In this document: piece after piece, positions 2,199-17,741 of the stretch
Layout: each line of letters begins with the position of its first letter
How positions within the stretch are numbered: the first letter of the stretch is position 1
DNA from: an uncultured Agathobacter sp.
GTDB lineage: Bacteria > Bacillota > Clostridia > Lachnospirales > Lachnospiraceae
Assembly: GCA_934307695.1 (NCBI GenBank)
Contig: CAKRCS010000002.1
Location: forward strand, 1 to 64,000
DNA length: 64,000 bases
Reading direction: 5' to 3'
Notes under the pieces: model-generated
The model's input: the letters and a program-made list of their open reading frames with translations, nothing else
Told to the model about the DNA's origin: nothing
The model's database searches: none
Translations under genes and position numbers: made by a program

Positions 2199-2828
2199 TC
2201 AGCCGCAGTTACAGTTGCCCTTGTTCCCGCATCCCTTGTCAAACTGTGGATTGCACATATAATAATTCTTGCTGTCTAACTCATCGCAGATCATGCGAAG
2301 TCCTTCCCCGAATCTCTGGAAATGAACAATCTCACGCTCTCTTAAGAACCGGATCGGATCTGCGACCTCCTGATCCTTGACCAGACGCAGGATATTATCG
2401 TAGGTTGTTCTCGCCTTCTGCTCTGCCGCCATATCTTCAAACAGATCCGTGATGGTGTCGCCTTTTGACTGGAACTCGCACGCGTTGAACGGGATTCCTC
2501 CCGCCGCCTGCGGCCAGACTGCCGCCGTATGATCGATGTAATACGGTGCAAATCCGGCATCTTCAAGCTCCTTGGCGCTCAGTCCCTTGGTAAGCTGTCT
2601 TACGATCGTTGCAACCATCTCAAGATGTGCAAGCTCCTCGGTTCCAATATCTGTCAAAAGTCCTGCAACCTTCCGGTTCTCCATGGAATATCTCTGGGAG
2701 AGATAGCGCATGGAAGCACCCATCTCGCCATCGGGTCCACCATACTGACTGATAATAAAGGAAGCCATCTTCGCATTCGGCTGCGTGATATTAACCGGAT
2801 ACTCTAAGCGTTTCTCATACAACCACAT
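2199..2828 (-). CDS. cotJC: Spore coat protein CotJC (manganese-catalase-like)
   Basis: The 209-residue protein begins MWLYEKRLEYPVNI, the usual CotJC start, and I chose the ATG at 2828 because AAGGAGG lies 6 nt upstream; an ATG 13 codons earlier lacks this. It carries the diiron/dimanganese ferritin-like helices of Mn-catalase, with metal-ligand-type motifs EELAHLEMV and EREIVHFQRFGE. The C-terminus is Cys/Gly-rich (CGNKGNCNCG). CotJC is a coat component made in the mother cell. The gene overlaps cotJB by 25 bp, indicating translational coupling. Confidence 0.95.
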   Translation of the reverse strand: MWLYEKRLEYPVNITQPNAKMASFIISQYGGPDGEMGASMRYLSQRYSMENRKVAGLLTDIGTEELAHLEMVATIVRQLTKGLSAKELEDAGFAPYYIDHTAAVWPQAAGGIPFNACEFQSKGDTITDLFEDMAAEQKARTTYDNILRLVKDQEVADPIRFLREREIVHFQRFGEGLRMICDELDSKNYYMCNPQFDKGCGNKGNCNCG

Positions 2829-3103
2829 ACCTTGCCTCCTTCCCATGGAAGCGGATAATCCGTCCATGTAAAATACGCATCATACGGAGCCCCGTCATAC
2901 GCGAGTGTGCAGCCGCACATCGCACAATACCTTTGTTTTGCCTGCCGGAGCATTTCTACACACTGGTTAAAATACGCGATACCATCCGCATCGTCCGGGT
3001 GCGTATCCAGATAAAGCAGCATATCGTATGCGCAGAAATTGAGCATGCCGATCCAATCGTTAAGCTGGGACACACTCATGTTATTCATGGTCATTGTGTT
3101 CAT
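2804..3103 (-). CDS. cotJB: Spore coat protein CotJB
   Basis: The 99-residue protein has the CotJB core LNFCAYDMLLYLDTHPDD and ALxY-type ending ARQ/CMRNA-like; a KQRY segment and Cys pairs (CAMCGC) follow in the middle. The family partners CotJC in the spore coat. The start at 3103 lies 9 nt after GGAGG and overlaps the cotJA stop by ATGA. The C-terminus runs into cotJC. The order cotJA-B-C is that of Bacillus and Clostridia. Confidence 0.92.
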   Translation of the reverse strand: MNTMTMNNMSVSQLNDWIGMLNFCAYDMLLYLDTHPDDADGIAYFNQCVEMLRQAKQRYCAMCGCTLAYDGAPYDAYFTWTDYPLPWEGGKVCGCMRNA

Positions 3104-3319: not shown

Positions 3320-3351
3320 ATACAAAAAAGAGCCACAATGTGACTCTTTTT
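3320..3351 (-). terminator. Terminator of the DUF5717 operon
   Basis: On the minus strand, AAAAAGAGTCACA/TGTGGCTCTTTTTT forms a hairpin ending in a T tract, between the coiled-coil membrane gene and cotJA. It is similar to the last hairpin of the 135-bp repeat. Confidence 0.75.
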
Positions 3352-3427
3352 CTTCCGAAGCCGGATTCCATATAAACGCCGGCTATACTATTCATTCTTT
3401 TGTAACTATATAGCTCAGACAGTTCTT

Positions 3428-4669
3428 TTAGGGCTGCAACGGATGGTTCAGCTCGTCGATCTTTTGTAAGATCTGCTTTACCTGTTCCGATATTTCTCCC
3501 ATATAGCGGGTATTGTTCAGAACCTCCCTCTTCATGCTGTCTATCGCCGTCAGGCTGTCCTCCATGCTGCTTCGCAGCTTCTGCCGCCGCACGGTAAAAT
3601 CCTTGCGGACAGCCTCCATCTTCTTCTCATCCAGCAACAGCATCGGATCATGCGCCCAGAAAGACGCATCAAACAGATGAAGCTGCTCCAGCTGCCCGGT
3701 CAGCTTCTCCGTGTAAAAGACCAGATCATCGTTGGTCTGCTTAAAGCGCTCCTGCTCCTTGACCGCAGCCTGAAACTTTTCGTACATATAGGTCAGCTCG
3801 TAGGAATTTTTGACATGATATTTCTCGCATGTATAATCGACCGCATTCTTGATGTTGACAAACTTCAGCTTGACACGGTTTTCAAGCAGGATCGCCTGAT
3901 TGCAGTTGACATCACAGCGCTTGATCTCCTTGGTACAATCCTGATATTTCAGCAGGACATACGCACCGATCAGTGTCGTAATAAATGCCGCGATAAGCAG
4001 CATCAGCTGGATATCGTAATCCATGTAGTAGCGCACTACAAGAAGCACCAGCACCGCAATGGAAAAAAGCGCCAAAAGAAGCACCGCGATCCGGCGCAGC
4101 ATGATCTGCTCCCGCTCGCATTCCTGCTTAAGAATCGTCCACTCGACCTTCTCCCCCTCTAAGTAATGCATATCGCGCTTGATTGCGTCCAGATATGCCT
4201 CATTGGATTTGAGCCGCTTTACGGAGGTTGGCACCTCGTCCTCTTCCTCCTGCATCTGCGCGAACTGCGTATCGGTAAGCTGCTTTTCGTTCTTCAAAAG
4301 CTGTGCTCTCGTCTCATCCAGCTTCTGGATCTGGCGCGCGGTCTCAAGAATCGGTGCGCGCTCCTGTTCGGACAGCTCCTGCCACAACATAATATCATTA
4401 AGCTGCGAGGTTACCTGCTGATATTCACTTCTGGTATTTTCGAGTTCTCTTGAGGAATCGATGATCTCCTCACACAGCTCCACGACATGCCGCCTGCCCG
4501 TGACGGTTTTTCGGACAGTCTGTGCCGTCCTGCGCTCGGCAGATCTTCGTCTTGATCCGGGATCATCTGCGGTATCCCTCTCCGGCTGCTCCTTAAGTGG
4601 TGCGTAGCCTCCGCCCCAGTCCTCGTCCTCGTTTTGTCTTTTTTTCTTCCGCAAAAAATCAAATATCAT
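3428..4669 (-). CDS. Coiled-coil membrane protein of the DUF5717/DUF5716 operon
   Basis: This 413-residue protein has a charged N-terminus, a long coiled coil (about 62-190), two membrane segments (about 194-213 and 220-241) with a short link, and a second coiled coil to the C-terminus (about 245-405). The two membrane passes probably place both coiled coils on the same, presumably cytoplasmic, face. It is the last gene of a four-gene operon, 10 bp after the TPR gene. I know no characterised homologue. It may be the membrane anchor of a complex with its neighbours; this is inference from layout. Confidence 0.8.
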   Translation of the reverse strand: MIFDFLRKKKRQNEDEDWGGGYAPLKEQPERDTADDPGSRRRSAERRTAQTVRKTVTGRRHVVELCEEIIDSSRELENTRSEYQQVTSQLNDIMLWQELSEQERAPILETARQIQKLDETRAQLLKNEKQLTDTQFAQMQEEEDEVPTSVKRLKSNEAYLDAIKRDMHYLEGEKVEWTILKQECEREQIMLRRIAVLLLALFSIAVLVLLVVRYYMDYDIQLMLLIAAFITTLIGAYVLLKYQDCTKEIKRCDVNCNQAILLENRVKLKFVNIKNAVDYTCEKYHVKNSYELTYMYEKFQAAVKEQERFKQTNDDLVFYTEKLTGQLEQLHLFDASFWAHDPMLLLDEKKMEAVRKDFTVRRQKLRSSMEDSLTAIDSMKREVLNNTRYMGEISEQVKQILQKIDELNHPLQP

Positions 4670-4679
4670 ATATCAGACC

Positions 4680-5519
4680 TTACATCCTGCATATTCTGCG
4701 ATAATCATCCTTCCATTTCAGTATGATATCCCGCAGTTCCTTCTGTTTGCGCATGTGGGCATCCTCACCCACATATCCTGCGATGCGCTCCAGCTGCTCC
4801 TCAAGCGCCGCGTTGTCCTCGCCCCTGCTTGCCATCGAAGCCTCGTTCCGGAGTGCCTGCATCGCGGTATCGTCATATCCATGCTCCAATGCAACGCGGA
4901 TAAAGCCCTGCTCGTCATGGCGGCACCGGTAGCACATCAAAAGCTCCCTGACCGACTCCTCACTGTTGTTCTTTTCGTACGCCTTCTCATAGCAGTTTGC
5001 TGCCTCATCAAACAAAAAGAGCCTTGCATACGCCGTTCCGAGGTTGTGCCAGATATTTCCGATTGTTACCGGATTCTCCTCCCTCGCCTCCTCGCTCTCC
5101 AACAGATGGCGGTACTCATAGATGCTGCCTAAATACTTCTGGCGTTCCATCAGGCGGTCAGCGCGGATCTTGCTGCACTCAAAGTCAGACTTTTCCTCCA
5201 TCTCGGCGATCACACTTAGGATATGCTCTGCCTCTTCCTTCGTACAGTACCCGGTCTCTAAGATGATCTCGCGGACAAAGTCGGACAGTTTGCCATTCGT
5301 GCGCATGATGTCGCGCAGGCGGTCTGCAAGCCGTATCCGACCCACTTCCTTCTCGATCCAGGTACAGAGCTCCTCACTCATAAAATCGCGCTCGATCAGG
5401 TATATGTTGTTCATAAAGTAATAGCAAAGCTCTTCCAGCGAATACACATTGACAGATACCCCGTCAATATAATATGGCATTGCCGCTATCGGTTCTTTGC
5501 ATAAAAGAAGTTCGCCCAC
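4680..5519 (-). CDS. TPR-repeat protein of the DUF5717/DUF5716 operon
   Basis: The 279-residue soluble protein starts with GTG at 5519 behind GGAGG. The N-terminal 120 residues are helical (PYYIDGVSVNVYSLEELCYY, then YCTKEEAEHILSVI). Residues about 120-260 hold TPR-like repeats, clearest in NIWHNLGTAYARLFLFDEAANCYEKAYE. TPRs usually bind other proteins, so it may be an adaptor linking the upstream Hsp70-like protein and the downstream membrane protein. It follows the DUF5716 gene by 13 bp. The specific role is unknown. Confidence 0.82.
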   Translation of the reverse strand: MGELLLCKEPIAAMPYYIDGVSVNVYSLEELCYYFMNNIYLIERDFMSEELCTWIEKEVGRIRLADRLRDIMRTNGKLSDFVREIILETGYCTKEEAEHILSVIAEMEEKSDFECSKIRADRLMERQKYLGSIYEYRHLLESEEAREENPVTIGNIWHNLGTAYARLFLFDEAANCYEKAYEKNNSEESVRELLMCYRCRHDEQGFIRVALEHGYDDTAMQALRNEASMASRGEDNAALEEQLERIAGYVGEDAHMRKQKELRDIILKWKDDYRRICRM

Positions 5520-5532
5520 AAAAAAGCCTCCG

Positions 5533-6768
5533 TCAGACAGACATCATATAACGCCAGTTCTTATCCGTGCTGCGGTAAAACTCGCCGAAGCCCAGATCCT
5601 TGATCTCAATCTCTACCTTGTCATCCGCAACCGGCTTTGCCGTGATCCGAAGCCGCGTCGTCTTGTCCGGTCTCTGCGGAATATCCGTCAGTTCAAGTGT
5701 CTCGATCTTTGCCTCACGGCTGTTTGGAAGCTGTTTCCAGAAATCGATCTCGCAGCTTCCGTTTAGGATAACCTCACACTCTCCCCGCGTCTCAAACCAG
5801 TTCTTTCCGGCACTGATCAGGTTAAAAAACTCAAGCCTTCCCTGATTGCGCACCTTGAGACTGATGTTAAATTTCATTTCGTTTTCGCCCATGTAGATAT
5901 AGGGCCATGACTCCTCATTGTCCCGGATCCATGCACCGTAGCAGGCACCCTTGGAATACAGGTTCTTCCCGACAAATGCCCGCCGTCCCCGGCACAGAAA
6001 TACCAGTGACTCTTTCATCCAGTCACCGTCAAAGCCATCCCCGACCAGATATACAGCGGAAATGATCTTATTCTCAAACGCCTTCTGTAAGATCCTGCCA
6101 AAATCGGCATCGCGGTCAACGCCGAGCGCCTGCCTGCTGCTCTCCGCGATCGTAACGACCTGCGGTGTCGTGCGCATATTGCGCGACAATGCATAGTAAT
6201 ACAGGTTGTCCTGATTGCATTCGAGCAGATACACATCGTGCACCCACAGATCCGGCTTCTGATTGAGTGCAAAAAAATAAAAGCACTCTCTATGGTCGAT
6301 CACCATGAACTGTTCCTTGGAAAAGCCAAGCTTGGAGGCTGCTTTCCACAGCACATCCATGTTCTCCCTCGTAAGACGGTCAACCGTTATCACAAGGCGG
6401 TCACAGTAGATAGGGTTGCCAAGCTTCTGCGGAAGCTGGATCAGCTTCTTTAAGAAAAGCGTAAGCAGCTCCTCCGCCTCAAAGCTCTCGTCCTCCATGC
6501 GGATGCTTTCGTGGTTCACCGCACGTTTTAGCAGGTTGTCCACGCAGATCATCTCGCTGGTCTTTGCAAGGCGTCTCGCGTCCTCACCGTAGTACCACTG
6601 TCCAAGCCCTTTTCGCTTGGCGAGCACCAGCGGGATCTGGTACATTTCGCTGCCCGCAACCGTACTTACCGTATCAGGTTCGCTCATATTCGGTTGAAAA
6701 TAACTTATCATGGCATAACGGTCATTCAGATCGATGCCAAGATAATACGGGATACGTTTTGCCTCCAC
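5533..6768 (-). CDS. DUF5716-family protein, Hsp70/actin-like ATPase fold
   Basis: The 411-residue protein starts with GTG at 6768, behind AAAGGAT. Its N-terminus YYLGIDLNDRYAMISYF looks like the phosphate-1 loop of the actin/Hsp70 superfamily, and VYLVGDGFDGDW (about residue 240) like its adenosine motif. The C-terminal 120 residues look beta-rich, with alternating hydrophobic residues (KTRLRITAKPVADDKVEIEI). From memory, this matches the DUF5716 family of Lachnospiraceae, which is uncharacterised. Nucleotide binding is predicted, not shown. It lies 13 bp after the giant DUF5717 gene. Confidence 0.82.
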   Translation of the reverse strand: MEAKRIPYYLGIDLNDRYAMISYFQPNMSEPDTVSTVAGSEMYQIPLVLAKRKGLGQWYYGEDARRLAKTSEMICVDNLLKRAVNHESIRMEDESFEAEELLTLFLKKLIQLPQKLGNPIYCDRLVITVDRLTRENMDVLWKAASKLGFSKEQFMVIDHRECFYFFALNQKPDLWVHDVYLLECNQDNLYYYALSRNMRTTPQVVTIAESSRQALGVDRDADFGRILQKAFENKIISAVYLVGDGFDGDWMKESLVFLCRGRRAFVGKNLYSKGACYGAWIRDNEESWPYIYMGENEMKFNISLKVRNQGRLEFFNLISAGKNWFETRGECEVILNGSCEIDFWKQLPNSREAKIETLELTDIPQRPDKTTRLRITAKPVADDKVEIEIKDLGFGEFYRSTDKNWRYMMSV

Positions 6769-6781
6769 GTTTTATCCTTTC

Positions 6782-9700
6782 TTACAATAGCTTAAACAGC
6801 TTCTCCGTCACTTCCTGATATCCTGCGTACTGCTTCATGTTGTGGTAAAGTGCCTTCTCATCCTGCAGGGTATTGGAGATCATCATCTGGTTGAGCAGAT
6901 TGTATCTGCTTAAGTCATTCTCACTGTATACATCATTGTTGGCAATGCGGCTGCTCTCCGTCACCTGTACTTCATTGCCGTACTCCTCCGAGATGTAATA
7001 CTGCACCATCTCACCGAAGAACATCACGAATGCCTTCACGAAAATGCCATCGTACACATCCGGCATATCCTCCGCGATAAACTGCTCTCCATCCTCATCC
7101 CGGCTGTAATGCAGCACCACATGGTTGCGCGGGTTGGTGCGGTATTCCAGAAATATCTTATCGTAAAAATGATATTTCTGCACAAGTCTGTGATCAAGCT
7201 TCTTGAAGAAACCGAAATTCATATTGCGGCAGGTATACTCGGATAACAATTCATCCTCGATCTTATACTGCGCGTCATCCGTACCCGGACAATCCGAGTA
7301 GAACTTTAACAGGGCGAGCTTGCACGCATCGTTTAGCTCCATCCGGTACACATAGCGCGCCTCGATCATCTCAAAAACATACTTCTCCACCGCCGTGCGA
7401 TATACAAAATAATCATGCGCCCGGTAGGAAAGATACGCCAGCACCACCAGTTCTCTTCCACCGTCCTCATAGTAGCTCTGGAAGATTTCATCCGCCTGCG
7501 GCAGGATATGATCGGCATACATCATCTGGACAAGAATGCGCTCCTCCAGCTCAAAGGTCTCCACATGAAAATCCTTTGCAGCCTTCCACAGTGCGCACAT
7601 CTGCTCTGTCGGACCATTGTAATACCGGCTCATGTAAAGCAGCATGTCCTCATTATACTTGCCCGCATAAAAAGCCTGCTCAACCAGAAGGGAAAGCGCA
7701 TCGTCCTCCTCCCCGCCGAGCGTGTGGATCATATAGCTTGCAAGCGCGACCTTGGAGGCGGAGCCAACCTGATCGATGCCAAACTCCGTAACCATCGCGT
7801 ATGCCTTCTCGTACTTGTGATTCTGTGCGAGCAGCTCCATCATAAAACGCCGCGTCTCCGCCGGCATCCACGAGAAGTCCGTCTCATCCAGATATTCCTT
7901 TAGCGTCGCATCGTACTCTCCGGTCTGATAGAATCGCACGATCTCCGGAACGATCTCTGCCTGATACTCCGGGCTTAGATCCGTTGCGAACAGGATTCTC
8001 CGGAAAAAGCGCTTATCGCTGGAAACAAACGTCAGATACGTCTGTCTTGTATCAAAGTAGGACACGATATAAGAAAGCTCGTTCGGTGCGAGCGTCATGC
8101 ATTTTTCCTCGAATGCCGCCGCATCCATAAGCGGTTCGATGCGGTAGGAAACACTTCCCGCATAGCGCCGTCCCTTGGCATCCTCAAACAGGATCACATA
8201 CTCTCTGGAATAGAGCTGGAAATATGCCGTCTGGTCGGAAATCGGTACGATCTGCGGATCGCGGAGCTGTCTCTGATAGATAAAAGCGCGCACCATGCGT
8301 TTGTCATCCACGTACAGCTTATTGGTATAGAGAATGTGGGACAGTGCGTGTGCGATCTCCTCATTGATCAGACCAAGCTCAAGCATATCACGGTAGACAA
8401 CCGCAAGGTTGTCATCCATGTGTTCCTGCTCCACCTGTTCCATCGCAAAGCGTCCCATTGCCCGCCGGTATTTGTGATATGTCTCCGGATCTTTCTCTTT
8501 GTTAGCAATGATATTGTTGTACAAAACCGCCAGCTTACGGTAAGGCACCTTGCTCTCGTACTGGAAATACATCTGGATGATCTTCGGCACAGCGGCGATC
8601 TCCCGCTCATCCGCAGAAAGCAGATACGCCTCGTACAGTCCGGTGATCCGAAGTTCCTGCCCGATCCCCTGCTCATACCACTTGTGATAGCATTTGTCGT
8701 ACTGCTGGCCGCGGATCAGATAGCTGCAGATGATCCCGACATTGGCAGGCTTCGGGTTGACCTCATACGCCGCCACCAGAAGCTGGTACATGACCGGATC
8801 AAAGGCTTTGCTCGCCTCCACGATCTGGAAGATCTGGATGGAAATATCCTTCGTGATCGCCTTGTGCCGGATCGCCCAGCGCAGGATGCGCACCTCAAAC
8901 TTATCCAGCTTCGTCAGTAGATACGGATCCTGCCAAATCAGATAGTACGCCTCCAGATACAGATACGGGGACGCACAGCCCTTTAACACCCAGTATTCGA
9001 TTGCCTTGAGCTTGTGTGCGTTGTTGTTGTAATACTCCTCCTCCAGAAAGGACAATACCCAGAATAGCATGACCGAATCCGGGTTTTCCCGGAAGATTGC
9101 CTCGATCTCATGCGTCATCCGGTCCACATAGGACGGTTCGCGCTCCATCAGCGTCATCAGATACAGATAATATCCCCAGACAGGCGCCTTGCGGTCGATC
9201 CATTCCCGTTTGAAGTCGTCGAGGATCCACTCTGCCTCCTGCCTCTGGCGGTTGATGATAAACACCTGCGCCTTCATCAGCGGATACATCGGCTCCTCCG
9301 GCAGCATCGCATGCAGATGATCCAGAATCTCGATCGTCTCATTCGCCCACACGCCGGTCACGATCCGCTTCAGGCGGTACGCCTGGTACAGCTCCATGAT
9401 GCCGACCTTGCATTCTCGGATATCCAGCCGGTCTTTTCTTGCATTTTCATCAATCTCTGCTGCCTTTGACGCGGTGACAGAGACGGTGTAGGACTGATGC
9501 GGTCCCGTGAATGTGATAAGCCCGGTATTTTTGCCCGCATGCAGCTTCTCGTGATCGATATAGAACTCAAAGAAGCAGGAGCTTCCGATAAAGTCCTCCG
9601 TCGTGATAAGACTCTTGGAAAGCTGTATAAAATCGCCCTTGACTGTGATCTCGATCGACAAAAAGCCCCACTGGTTCTTCGTGATCTCGACCGTCTCCTT

Positions 9701-10327
9701 GTACGTCTGTGCAAGAGCAGTATATTCATACTCCGTCTTTGCCACAGAAAAGGTGACCGGTTCCTTCTTGCGGATTCCGACTAAAAACTCCTCCAGATTC
9801 TGGTTGGAAGGCTTCGCCCCGATCATTCCGCGGTAGATCATGGACTCCTTCAGTTCTTTTTTCTTGATGATATTTGGAAAACTCTTGTGATAGAACAGCT
9901 GGTATGCCTCGTCCCAGTTATCCTTTGCCAGATTGGAAAAATCATAAAGCGTCTCAACCGTTCCGGTAGATGCATGCGCATATCTCTTGGAAATGGACAC
10001 ACAAAAAGAAAGACTGTATTCCTTCTGGTTGCATACAATCACAAACTCGCCCTTCTGTGTCTCGCCTTCTGTAAGTCCCTTGCTGTGAAACCGGTAACGG
10101 ATATGGACTTCTCTTCCCTCGAACTGTGGTGTGAGGCATTCCATTCTCGCGTTGGTGGAGTACACCACACCGCGCAGGAGCAGATCCTCCGATGCCGTGA
10201 AGGAAAAATCCCCGGACATTTCGGTATTCTCTGTCACATCCAGCTCGATAGAGTCCTTGGAAAACGATAAAACAGGCTTCGTATATTCAAATTTGCCTCT
10301 GGCTATCTGCCGGATGCGCTTACGCAC
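6782..10327 (-). CDS. Giant DUF5717-family protein (1181 aa)
   Basis: GTG start at 10327 behind GGGTGA. The N-terminus contains two beta-sandwich-like segments (about 15-110 and 190-285), each ending in an alternating Ig-like strand (KEYSLSFCVSISK; HQSYTVSVTAS). Residues about 300-1000 are helical, TPR/SEL1-like with irregular repeats (ILDDFKREWIDRKAPVWGYYLYL). No signal peptide or membrane segment is evident, so it is probably cytoplasmic. It matches the DUF5717 family as I remember it, always large and next to DUF5716. As first gene of the operon with its own promoter, it is probably a scaffold. Function unknown. Confidence 0.82.
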   Translation of the reverse strand: MRKRIRQIARGKFEYTKPVLSFSKDSIELDVTENTEMSGDFSFTASEDLLLRGVVYSTNARMECLTPQFEGREVHIRYRFHSKGLTEGETQKGEFVIVCNQKEYSLSFCVSISKRYAHASTGTVETLYDFSNLAKDNWDEAYQLFYHKSFPNIIKKKELKESMIYRGMIGAKPSNQNLEEFLVGIRKKEPVTFSVAKTEYEYTALAQTYKETVEITKNQWGFLSIEITVKGDFIQLSKSLITTEDFIGSSCFFEFYIDHEKLHAGKNTGLITFTGPHQSYTVSVTASKAAEIDENARKDRLDIRECKVGIMELYQAYRLKRIVTGVWANETIEILDHLHAMLPEEPMYPLMKAQVFIINRQRQEAEWILDDFKREWIDRKAPVWGYYLYLMTLMEREPSYVDRMTHEIEAIFRENPDSVMLFWVLSFLEEEYYNNNAHKLKAIEYWVLKGCASPYLYLEAYYLIWQDPYLLTKLDKFEVRILRWAIRHKAITKDISIQIFQIVEASKAFDPVMYQLLVAAYEVNPKPANVGIICSYLIRGQQYDKCYHKWYEQGIGQELRITGLYEAYLLSADEREIAAVPKIIQMYFQYESKVPYRKLAVLYNNIIANKEKDPETYHKYRRAMGRFAMEQVEQEHMDDNLAVVYRDMLELGLINEEIAHALSHILYTNKLYVDDKRMVRAFIYQRQLRDPQIVPISDQTAYFQLYSREYVILFEDAKGRRYAGSVSYRIEPLMDAAAFEEKCMTLAPNELSYIVSYFDTRQTYLTFVSSDKRFFRRILFATDLSPEYQAEIVPEIVRFYQTGEYDATLKEYLDETDFSWMPAETRRFMMELLAQNHKYEKAYAMVTEFGIDQVGSASKVALASYMIHTLGGEEDDALSLLVEQAFYAGKYNEDMLLYMSRYYNGPTEQMCALWKAAKDFHVETFELEERILVQMMYADHILPQADEIFQSYYEDGGRELVVLAYLSYRAHDYFVYRTAVEKYVFEMIEARYVYRMELNDACKLALLKFYSDCPGTDDAQYKIEDELLSEYTCRNMNFGFFKKLDHRLVQKYHFYDKIFLEYRTNPRNHVVLHYSRDEDGEQFIAEDMPDVYDGIFVKAFVMFFGEMVQYYISEEYGNEVQVTESSRIANNDVYSENDLSRYNLLNQMMISNTLQDEKALYHNMKQYAGYQEVTEKLFKLL

Positions 10328-10398: not shown

Positions 10399-10427
10399 AT
10401 TATATACGATTTTGACAATTTTCGCAA
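10399..10427 (-). promoter_or_regulatory. Promoter of the DUF5717 operon
   Basis: On the minus strand TTGCGA (10427-10422) and a perfect TATAAT (10404-10399) are 17 bp apart, 72 bp upstream of the GTG start of the DUF5717 gene. The sequence is vegetative (sigma-A) in type, not sporulation-specific. Confidence 0.75.
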
Positions 10428-16532: not shown

Positions 16533-17741
16533 TTAGTTCAGACCAAAAATCGCTTCCAGCTCATGTGGATGGATCTCTGTTCCGATTACCACAAGACGTC
16601 CTGTGTAATCCGGCTCGCCGTCGCGGAGTTCATACTCGCCTGGAACCATATCAAAGTAGATCCATGAGCCGTCTGTGCTCTCAACCATACCCTTTGCACG
16701 CAGGATCGTGTCATCCTCCACGAACTTCTTCAAGATCTCCTCGATCTGGCTGCGCTCAAACTTGTGAGGTGTCTCCTTGCCCCAGCTTGTAAATACCTCA
16801 TCTGCATGATGATGGTGATGATGCTCGTGCTCGTCATGGTGACCACCGCAGCAAGGACATACGCCATCCTCGTCATGGTCGTGATGATGATGCTCATGCT
16901 CCTCGTCATGGTCATGATGATGCTCATGCTCCTCGTCATGGTCGTGGTGATGCTCATGCTCCTCATCGTGGTCATGGTGATGCTCATGCTCCTCATCATG
17001 GTCATGGTGGTGCTCATGCTCCTCGTCATGGTCATGATGATGCTCATGCTCCTCGTCGTGGTCATGATGGTGATGATGCTCGTGCTCATGCTCTGCCGCA
17101 TCCTGTGCATGACGTGCCTCTGCAAGCACCTTCATCTCAAGGTTGTCCTGTCCCTCGATAACCTTAAGGATCTGCTCACCGCTGATTGCCTTCCAGTCGG
17201 TTGTGATGATTGCTGCCTTCGGGTTCAACTGCTGGATCTGCTTTACACAGAACTCAAGCTGCTCCGGTGTGGCATTCTGGCTGCGGCTTAAGATCACGGT
17301 GGTCGCATACTCGATCTGGTTGTTGAAGAACTCGCCAAAAGCCTTCATCTGCTTGCTTGCCTTTACCGCATTTACAACAGTTACAAGTGCATTCAGCTTT
17401 ACGCCCTCTGACTCCTCAATGTCGATTACAGATTTCATGACATCGGAAAGCTTTCCGACACCAGATGGCTCGATCAGGATACGATCCGGATGGAACTTGT
17501 TGATCACTTCATGAAGGTTCTTTGCAAAATCTCCAACCAGTGAACAGCAGATGCAGCCGGAGTTCATCTCTGTGATCTCAATACCTGCATCCTTTAAAAA
17601 TCCACCGTCGATTCCGACCTCTCCGAACTCATTCTCGATCAGAACGATCTGCTCGCCCTTAAAGCTCTCCTCGATCATCTTCTTGATGAAGGTTGTCTTT
17701 CCTGCTCCGAGGAAACCAGATATAATATCAATTTTTGTCAT
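16533..17741 (-). CDS. CobW-family GTP-binding metallochaperone with His-rich tandem repeats
   Basis: The 402-residue protein has Walker A GFLGAGKT (9-16), the metal motif GCICC (62-66), and EPSGVGK. A His-rich insertion (218-290) with six copies of the decapeptide EEHEHHHDHD, plus CPCC (295-298) and more His, separates the GTPase from the C-terminal CobW_C domain (about 318-402). In place of the usual NKxD, it reads SRSQN. COG0523 proteins use GTP to deliver zinc, cobalt or iron; His richness favours zinc or nickel storage and delivery. It leads a two-gene operon with the CobW fusion. No recognisable Zur box was found upstream. Confidence 0.88.
   Translation of the reverse strand: MTKIDIISGFLGAGKTTFIKKMIEESFKGEQIVLIENEFGEVGIDGGFLKDAGIEITEMNSGCICCSLVGDFAKNLHEVINKFHPDRILIEPSGVGKLSDVMKSVIDIEESEGVKLNALVTVVNAVKASKQMKAFGEFFNNQIEYATTVILSRSQNATPEQLEFCVKQIQQLNPKAAIITTDWKAISGEQILKVIEGQDNLEMKVLAEARHAQDAAEHEHEHHHHHDHDEEHEHHHDHDEEHEHHHDHDEEHEHHHDHDEEHEHHHDHDEEHEHHHDHDEEHEHHHHDHDEDGVCPCCGGHHDEHEHHHHHHADEVFTSWGKETPHKFERSQIEEILKKFVEDDTILRAKGMVESTDGSWIYFDMVPGEYELRDGEPDYTGRLVVIGTEIHPHELEAIFGLN
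16872..17090 (-). repeat. 30-bp tandem repeats coding for the His-rich region
   Basis: Six consecutive 30-bp units encode EEHEHHHDHD, five with identical amino acids and a last one with an extra His. The units differ at silent sites (for example CAT/CAC and GAC/GAT choices), so they are not brand-new copies. Copy number could vary between strains by slippage. Confidence 0.85.

Follow-up and report, generated by a model that had tools for sequence, protein, structure and literature searches.

Ssz1 is a non-canonical Hsp70 of the fungal ribosome-associated complex. It has no lid, binds ATP without hydrolyzing it and passes nascent chains on to Ssb, the active Hsp70 (PMC7083937). DUF5716 (PF18980) and DUF5717 (PF18984/PF18983) are two protein families named as being of unknown function. 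Here we analyze a 64,000-nucleotide stretch (the window) of an uncultured Agathobacter sp. (assembly GCA_934307695.1, contig CAKRCS010000002.1, positions 1 to 64,000 of the forward strand), in which a member of each family is encoded in one four-gene operon. We propose that this operon is a reduced form of an eight-gene Hsp70 machine, and that its DUF5716 protein is a pseudo-Hsp70 that would act as a nucleotide-independent, Ssz1-like chaperone or adaptor, a reading to which we give an even chance. Our search returned no paper on the operon, DUF5716 or DUF5717 in the open-access literature, judged mostly by listings, with subscription journals and preprints unsearchable; to that extent the families are uncharacterised, as a first-pass annotation of the window had stated. 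The four genes are listed below.

6782 to 10327, minus strand: gene A, DUF5717 protein of 1181 aa (open reading frame (ORF) list, Pfam)
5533 to 6768, minus strand: gene B, DUF5716 protein of 411 aa (ORF list, Pfam)
4680 to 5519, minus strand: gene C, TPR-type protein of 279 aa (ORF list, sub-threshold Pfam matches, fusions elsewhere)
3428 to 4669, minus strand: gene D, two-pass membrane protein of 413 aa (ORF list, hydropathy)

Genes A to D lie head to tail with intergenic gaps of 13, 13 and 10 bp by their ORF coordinates, and inspection of the sequence revealed Shine-Dalgarno-like purine runs at the gene junctions. These ORFs, the 10-13 bp gaps and a gene order kept, wherever the genes are present, across 45 loci confirm the four-gene operon of the first-pass annotation, which we extend here with a longer operon that carries intact Hsp70s and a GrpE-domain protein, and with fusions of B to C. 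Gene order, distribution, predicted fold, catalytic loss and fusions were all computed. The nearest locus found (L008) belongs to an Agathobacter metagenome-assembled genome (MAG), with a B identity of 96%. No operon protein of the window had an above-cut-off match in NCBIfam.

The DUF5716 protein and its operon partners

B matches PF18980 with an E-value of 2e-110, above the curated cut-off. Its predicted fold consists of an actin-type nucleotide-binding-type domain without the block corresponding to subdomain IIB, followed by a substrate-binding-type beta domain (SBDbeta), and nearly all of its best 50 matches are chains named as Hsp70-family proteins, which bears out the Hsp70/actin-type fold previously assigned to it. 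The SBDbeta-like domain spans residues ~300-411 (5536 to 5871, minus strand; predicted fold and alignment). No helical lid (SBDalpha) was found in the predicted fold of B, whose final element is a strand at residues 404-410 of 411.

To characterize B further, we aligned it with 56 relatives, giving 57 sequences in all. At the positions equivalent to Lys70, Glu171, Thr199 and Asp201 (DnaK numbering), the catalytic residue was kept in 0/57, 1/57, 2/57 and 0/57 sequences, respectively. Likewise, none of the 57 had any residue in the presumed IIB block, defined as residues 201-255 of H2, an Hsp70 of the longer operon at locus L085; the equation of this block with IIB is our assignment. Eight columns were invariant, three of which (D391, G393 and G395) lie at the end of SBDbeta. 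As judged from these residues, B is an Hsp70 relative with catalytic loss; it shares with canonical Hsp70 (DnaK) the actin-type nucleotide-binding domain followed by SBDbeta. Given the loss of the catalytic residues and of IIB, B should not be capable of the Hsp70 ATP cycle. The terms "ATPase-type" and "ATP-driven" in the first-pass annotation are not supported by the same counts.

Six of the 147 B-carrying genomes of the family encode B and C as a single open frame of 690-727 aa. In all six fusions the B part extends to at least model position 400, while coverage of C begins no later than position 18 and runs to at least position 242; the B part of the L118 fusion lacks positions ~29-100. In a FastTree phylogeny built from 71 A proteins, with long branches near L118, the six fusions need three changes. 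These fusions, our best evidence for contact, suggest that B and C touch each other. In the window, C itself has only sub-threshold TPR matches in Pfam (best E 2.1e-5); its earlier designation as a TPR protein becomes clearer in relatives from longer operons. No transmembrane-like segment was seen in A, B or C, whose mean hydropathy does not exceed 1.3 in any window of 19 residues.

A matches PF18984 (E 8.9e-288) and PF18983 (8.9e-102), both above the curated cut-offs. Its AlphaFold2 model (predicted local distance difference test score, 88.6; predicted template modelling score, 0.62) and structure matches agree with the helical-repeat protein with an Ig-like start described earlier, and contain the following parts.

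9986 to 10276, minus strand: Ig-fold domain 1 of A, residues 18-114, PapD/ASH-like (predicted structure)
9455 to 9760, minus strand: Ig-fold domain 2 of A, residues 190-291 (matches include a GH115 domain, PapD-type chaperones and OCRL1)
Residues 294-662 of A: alpha-solenoid (AlphaFold2 model)
Residues 668-732 of A: beta stretch (AlphaFold2 model)
Residues 736-1051 of A: helices (AlphaFold2 model)
Residues 1057-1129 of A: beta stretch, then two C-terminal helices (AlphaFold2 model)

Profile comparison of A with PDB gave just weak TPR matches (E 0.014 or more), and the structure-match lists held no full-length match to its fold, a result that does not by itself establish a new fold.

Hydropathy places two hydrophobic segments in D, in agreement with the two-pass membrane protein annotated before. 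The pair is flanked by long charged regions that look like coiled coils. D had no Pfam match above cut-off, and its profiles gave only weak PDB matches (E 0.028 or more), several coiled coils among them. A perfect sigma-70-type site (12 of 12 positions, TTGACA-N16-TATAAT) lies antisense within gene D at 3810-3837 on the plus strand.

4031 to 4093, minus strand: transmembrane segment 1 of D, residues ~193-213 (hydropathy)
3950 to 4012, minus strand: transmembrane segment 2 of D, residues ~220-240 (hydropathy)

Distribution and the longer operon of related lineages

Among 45 loci obtained by similarity to B, a sample skewed to close relatives, tblastn detected B in all 45, C in 44, A in 43 and D in 42, always in the order A-B-C-D on a single strand wherever the genes were present. 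Both absences of A, the one of C and two of the three of D fall at contig ends; at the remaining locus, L044, D was not found in the ~1.2 kb left past C. We then sampled 150 genomes of the family to which Roseburia porci (G001) belongs, with membership as drawn; we take this family to be Lachnospiraceae on the strength of Roseburia porci, the genome at the centre of the draw, and order membership likewise comes from the draws. B was present in 147/150 genomes with one match apiece, and A in the same 147. The three genomes without A and B (G318, G371 and G377) also lack C, hence the set is all-or-none in this draw.

Gene neighbourhoods were examined in 40 genomes with handles from G299 to G346; the other eight handles comprise five in a second set of 20 loci (G317, G321, G322, G330 and G332), the matchless G318, and G337 and G340, left out with B near a contig edge. 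C adjoined B or was fused to it (L140) in all 40 loci, A lay beside B in 38 (L130 stops at B, and L147 has A on another contig), and D followed C in 18, three stretches having less than 1.2 kb past C. The 20 further loci, picked mostly for unseen D, had A-B-C together in 20/20 and D in 2/20. Overall, D was found in 42/100 family genomes. Therefore, A-B-C forms the constant core, with D as an optional member: the expectation that the four genes stay together held for the first three and only in part for D.

Across the class, PF18980 matched in 14/293 genomes, with 13 matches above cut-off and one false. Each genome had one match, of the short type, among those above cut-off, and at least 6 of the 13 came from the same family (G001, G181, G260, G276 and G291 recur in the family draw; the draw of G245 shares handles). 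A MarR-GNAT protein in G281 and, in G494, an incomplete Hsp70-like frame where the contig ends were dropped.

A different arrangement was found in other lineages of the order, where 57 genomes gave 29 PF18980 matches (27 above cut-off) and many genomes had two neighbouring DUF5716-like genes of ~500-560 codons. The full order of this long operon is A, H1, E, B1, B2, H2, C, D. Twelve of the 20 loci obtained, from 19 genomes, share the order A, H1, E, B1, B2, H2, C (L084, L085, L087-L093 and L095-L097, L087 and L090 having one small additional gene); the remaining eight (L086, L094, L098, L099, L100, L101, L102 and L103) are contig-cut, rearranged or incomplete. H1 is an Hsp70, B2 an Hsp70 with DUF5716_C, and H2 an Hsp70 with a C-terminal vWA domain by Pfam (L085, 6287-8362; L182, 4647-6722). 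A is usually divided in two, one part beta and the other helical, and the beta part went unrecognised beside the helical one in L093 and L097. D adjoins C in L088 and comes last in L182, a locus with every one of the eight places occupied; H1, E, B2, H2, A and D of L182 were recognised by sequence and the C-place gene by its TPRs. L182 comes from G488, a genome negative for PF18980 in the order draw, making the order count a lower bound. At L084 (5205-8384), H2 and C are each split into two frames, resembling decay or an assembly error, and its B1 is nearest to family B.

E ends in a C-terminal GrpE domain (Pfam 7.1e-11, 42.5 bits versus a cut-off of 25.8; 45.8 bits in L182), set on a long helical region. 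Its matches to the NCBIfam GrpE (4.3e-5, far under cut-off) and to GrpE in PDB (E 0.0033) were weaker, and public records of E from Defluviitalea and Epulopiscium are named "nucleotide exchange factor GrpE". G468 has an E identical to that in the Defluviitalea phaphyphila record and encodes an ordinary GrpE as well; the Roseburia genome G001 has a single GrpE. The tested catalytic residues are retained in H1, H2 and B2. In B1, the T199, K70 and D201 equivalents were each kept in 0/19 sequences, and 45-56 residues of the IIB block were present in 19/19. EEVD-type tails were absent from the C-termini compared, at most eight each for family B, B1, B2 and H1. Over the class, a profile of the long-operon A2 matched in 15/243 genomes: ten matches were strong, all in PF18980-positive genomes, and five weak (E 8e-10 to 8e-4). 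The GrpE-type profile gave 0/391 at E 1e-15, in a draw not known to include a long-operon genome.

To place family B, a quick-method tree of 45 rows (16/57 family B, 19 B1, 6/16 B2 and 4/14 H1) was rooted on H1. Family B grouped with B1 of the long operon L084 (Shimodaira-Hasegawa-like approximate likelihood ratio test, 100), with a value of 95 for the family clade. We also scanned for HSP70 in five family members so named in their records (G001-G004 and G006, the last a MAG without a full DnaK match) and in five genomes of the order. The extra Hsp70s of G001, G002 and G003 scored E 2e-154 or lower, with no such gene row, far better than H1, H2 and B2 of the long-operon genomes (~1e-46 to 1e-89). 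By score and place, H1, H2 and B2 thus appear to have been lost from Lachnospiraceae rather than relocated. An 891-aa Hsp70-like protein of Roseburia porci G001 (L183, 5874-8549), starting with GIDLGTTNS, scores in the H1/H2/B2 range and has unrelated neighbours.

We consider it somewhat probable that Lachnospirales possess a dedicated second Hsp70 machine, made of three Hsp70s with retained catalytic residues (one with vWA), a dead Hsp70, a GrpE-domain protein of its own, a very large Ig/solenoid scaffold, an adaptor of TPR type and an anchor in the membrane, and that its motor half was dropped in Lachnospiraceae, where the dead Hsp70 and scaffold turned into a core module that is near-universal, single-copy and ATP-independent.

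Proposed function and competing explanations

From these results we infer the direction of change, the contacts, a chaperone-type role and membrane attachment. A paralogue would have turned into a pseudo-Hsp70 within a multi-Hsp70 operon; the Lachnospiraceae ancestor would then have dropped the H1-E and B2-H2 blocks, while B shed its IIB lobe. IIB is the GrpE-binding and nucleotide-clamping lobe of Hsp70, and that B lacks it is consistent with the disappearance of the GrpE-type protein. Lachnospiraceae would thus retain A, a degenerate B, C and, in ~40% of genomes, D. A may serve as carrier or scaffold, and C may bind B, as the fusions suggest, and tie it to A. The lidless SBDbeta of B could be a permanently open module for binding clients or partners, or else a structural subunit, and D, where present, would hold the assembly at the cytoplasmic membrane face. 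Without an ATP cycle and with an open SBDbeta, B is proposed to work like Ssz1 in the ribosome-associated complex; by that analogy it may hold clients or relay them, perhaps to ordinary DnaK.

Several observations weigh against this reading. The phosphate-1 aspartate survives in 52/57 B sequences and the first adenosine-motif glycine in 57/57, so B may still bind ATP. The absence of a nucleotide pocket, named by the first-pass annotation as a refutation of its assembly, is accordingly borne out in part by the sequence losses of B, though these two nucleotide-contact positions are kept. The AlphaFold models, moreover, are of single proteins only. D was not found in 58/100 genomes, which indicates that membrane attachment is not essential to the core function. 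Pfam scans of the operon proteins revealed no J domain, no search having been made outside the operons. B1 is already degenerate in long operons, so the pseudo-Hsp70 state would predate the reduction, whose direction is drawn from a quick tree with long branches. The B1- and C-place assignments in L182 are mainly positional, the 433-aa B1-place gene having a BLAST E of 6.7e-4 over 22 residues. Finally, L101 (4817-9916) is a second short form, with A1, A2 and B1 only and no recognised Hsp70 or GrpE-type protein.

B could instead function outside chaperone work, as an Hsp70-fold pseudo-enzyme forming a structural or sensory part of a core envelope, division or secretion complex, with A as scaffold and C as glue. 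The near-universal single-copy presence in the family amid differing flanking genes, the catalytic loss in B, the Ig-plus-solenoid binding-scaffold architecture of A and the membrane nature of D are all compatible with such a role, which we regard as possible, though doubtful. Against it, three of the eight invariant columns of B lie at the SBDbeta end and its relatives stand amid genuine Hsp70s and a GrpE-domain protein, neither point being decisive. It is improbable that the short operon came first and that the long one is the product of Hsp70/GrpE insertions in sister lineages. Both forms exist, the class draw gave one short-type match per genome among those above cut-off and L101, which lies outside the family, has the short form, but the IIB block, empty in all family B, is still occupied in every B1, and the nearest relative of family B resides in the long operon L084. 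An ATP-driven, membrane-linked assembly with B as its motor, as the first-pass annotation suggested, could draw on the Hsp70/actin fold and the two surviving nucleotide-contact positions; we rejected it as very unlikely on the motif and subdomain loss, the missing lid and the absence of other ATPase families from the window's operon in Pfam. That the operon serves sporulation has next to no probability: it is followed by a cotJ-type spore-coat operon, with a CotJC-type neighbour in 16/45 loci (several cut short), but other loci have different neighbours, a terminator-like site separates D from the cotJ-type genes, and the operon is near-universal in the family and occurs in L045, a MAG of the non-sporing genus Pseudobutyrivibrio.

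A role in anti-phage defence found no support, the four window proteins having no match at E 0.01 in PADLOC, a library of systems known or proposed by 2023. Among five long-operon proteins compared with the same library, two Hsp70s (E 2e-7 and 3.9e-11) and the GrpE-type protein (0.0014) gave matches, which we read as shared Hsp70 or coiled-coil sequence. The Ssz1-like reading of a reduced Hsp70 machine is the one we prefer. What we add to DUF5716/DUF5717 is an Hsp70 relation, a fusion partner and an operon history. An apparent core function of a major human-gut family seems to have been overlooked behind two DUF labels, and the link of DUF5716 to Hsp70, together with the eight-gene relative, makes its biochemistry testable. 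The family would offer a natural case of a chaperone system that has shed its ATPases and GrpE-type protein while keeping a pseudo-Hsp70, which bears on Ssz1-type pseudo-Hsp70s in general.

Neighbouring features and comparison with known systems

The flanks of the operon carry the following features. Promoter-like sites numbered 14 versus 9.3 in shuffles, and terminator-like sites 9 versus 6.1.

10399 to 10427, minus strand: promoter-like TTGCGA-N17-TATAAT, 5' of A (consensus match only)
3324 to 3352, minus strand: terminator-like hairpin of 13 pairs with a T tract, 3' of D (consensus match only)
2199 to 3103, minus strand: cotJ-type genes directly downstream of the operon, Mn-catalase/CotJC-type and CotJB (Pfam), with a CotJA-like frame just upstream of them by eye only
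16533 to 17741, minus strand: CobW/G3E-GTPase-like gene (by eye) encoding an extended array of near-identical His/Asp/Glu-rich repeats that are probably metal-binding

Two near-N-terminal Ig-type domains followed by a solenoid are found in A as in the ASH/MSP/PapD scaffolds (HYDIN, CEP192 and the ciliary central pair). Like DnaK or HscA with GrpE, the long operon combines Hsp70s that keep the tested catalytic residues with a GrpE-domain protein; it differs by four clustered Hsp70-related genes, a vWA domain on one of them, GrpE set on a helical region, a DUF5717 protein, a TPR protein and a membrane protein (L088 and L182), and by the lack of any J domain reported in the scanned operon proteins, the search having stayed within the operons. 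Both Ssz1 and B combine a nucleotide-binding domain (NBD) with a lidless SBDbeta, the loss of hydrolysis in B being judged from residues only. In contrast, the NBD of Ssz1 is full-size whereas that of B lacks the IIB block, and the partner of Ssz1 is a J-protein at the ribosome, whereas the fused partner of B is a TPR protein.
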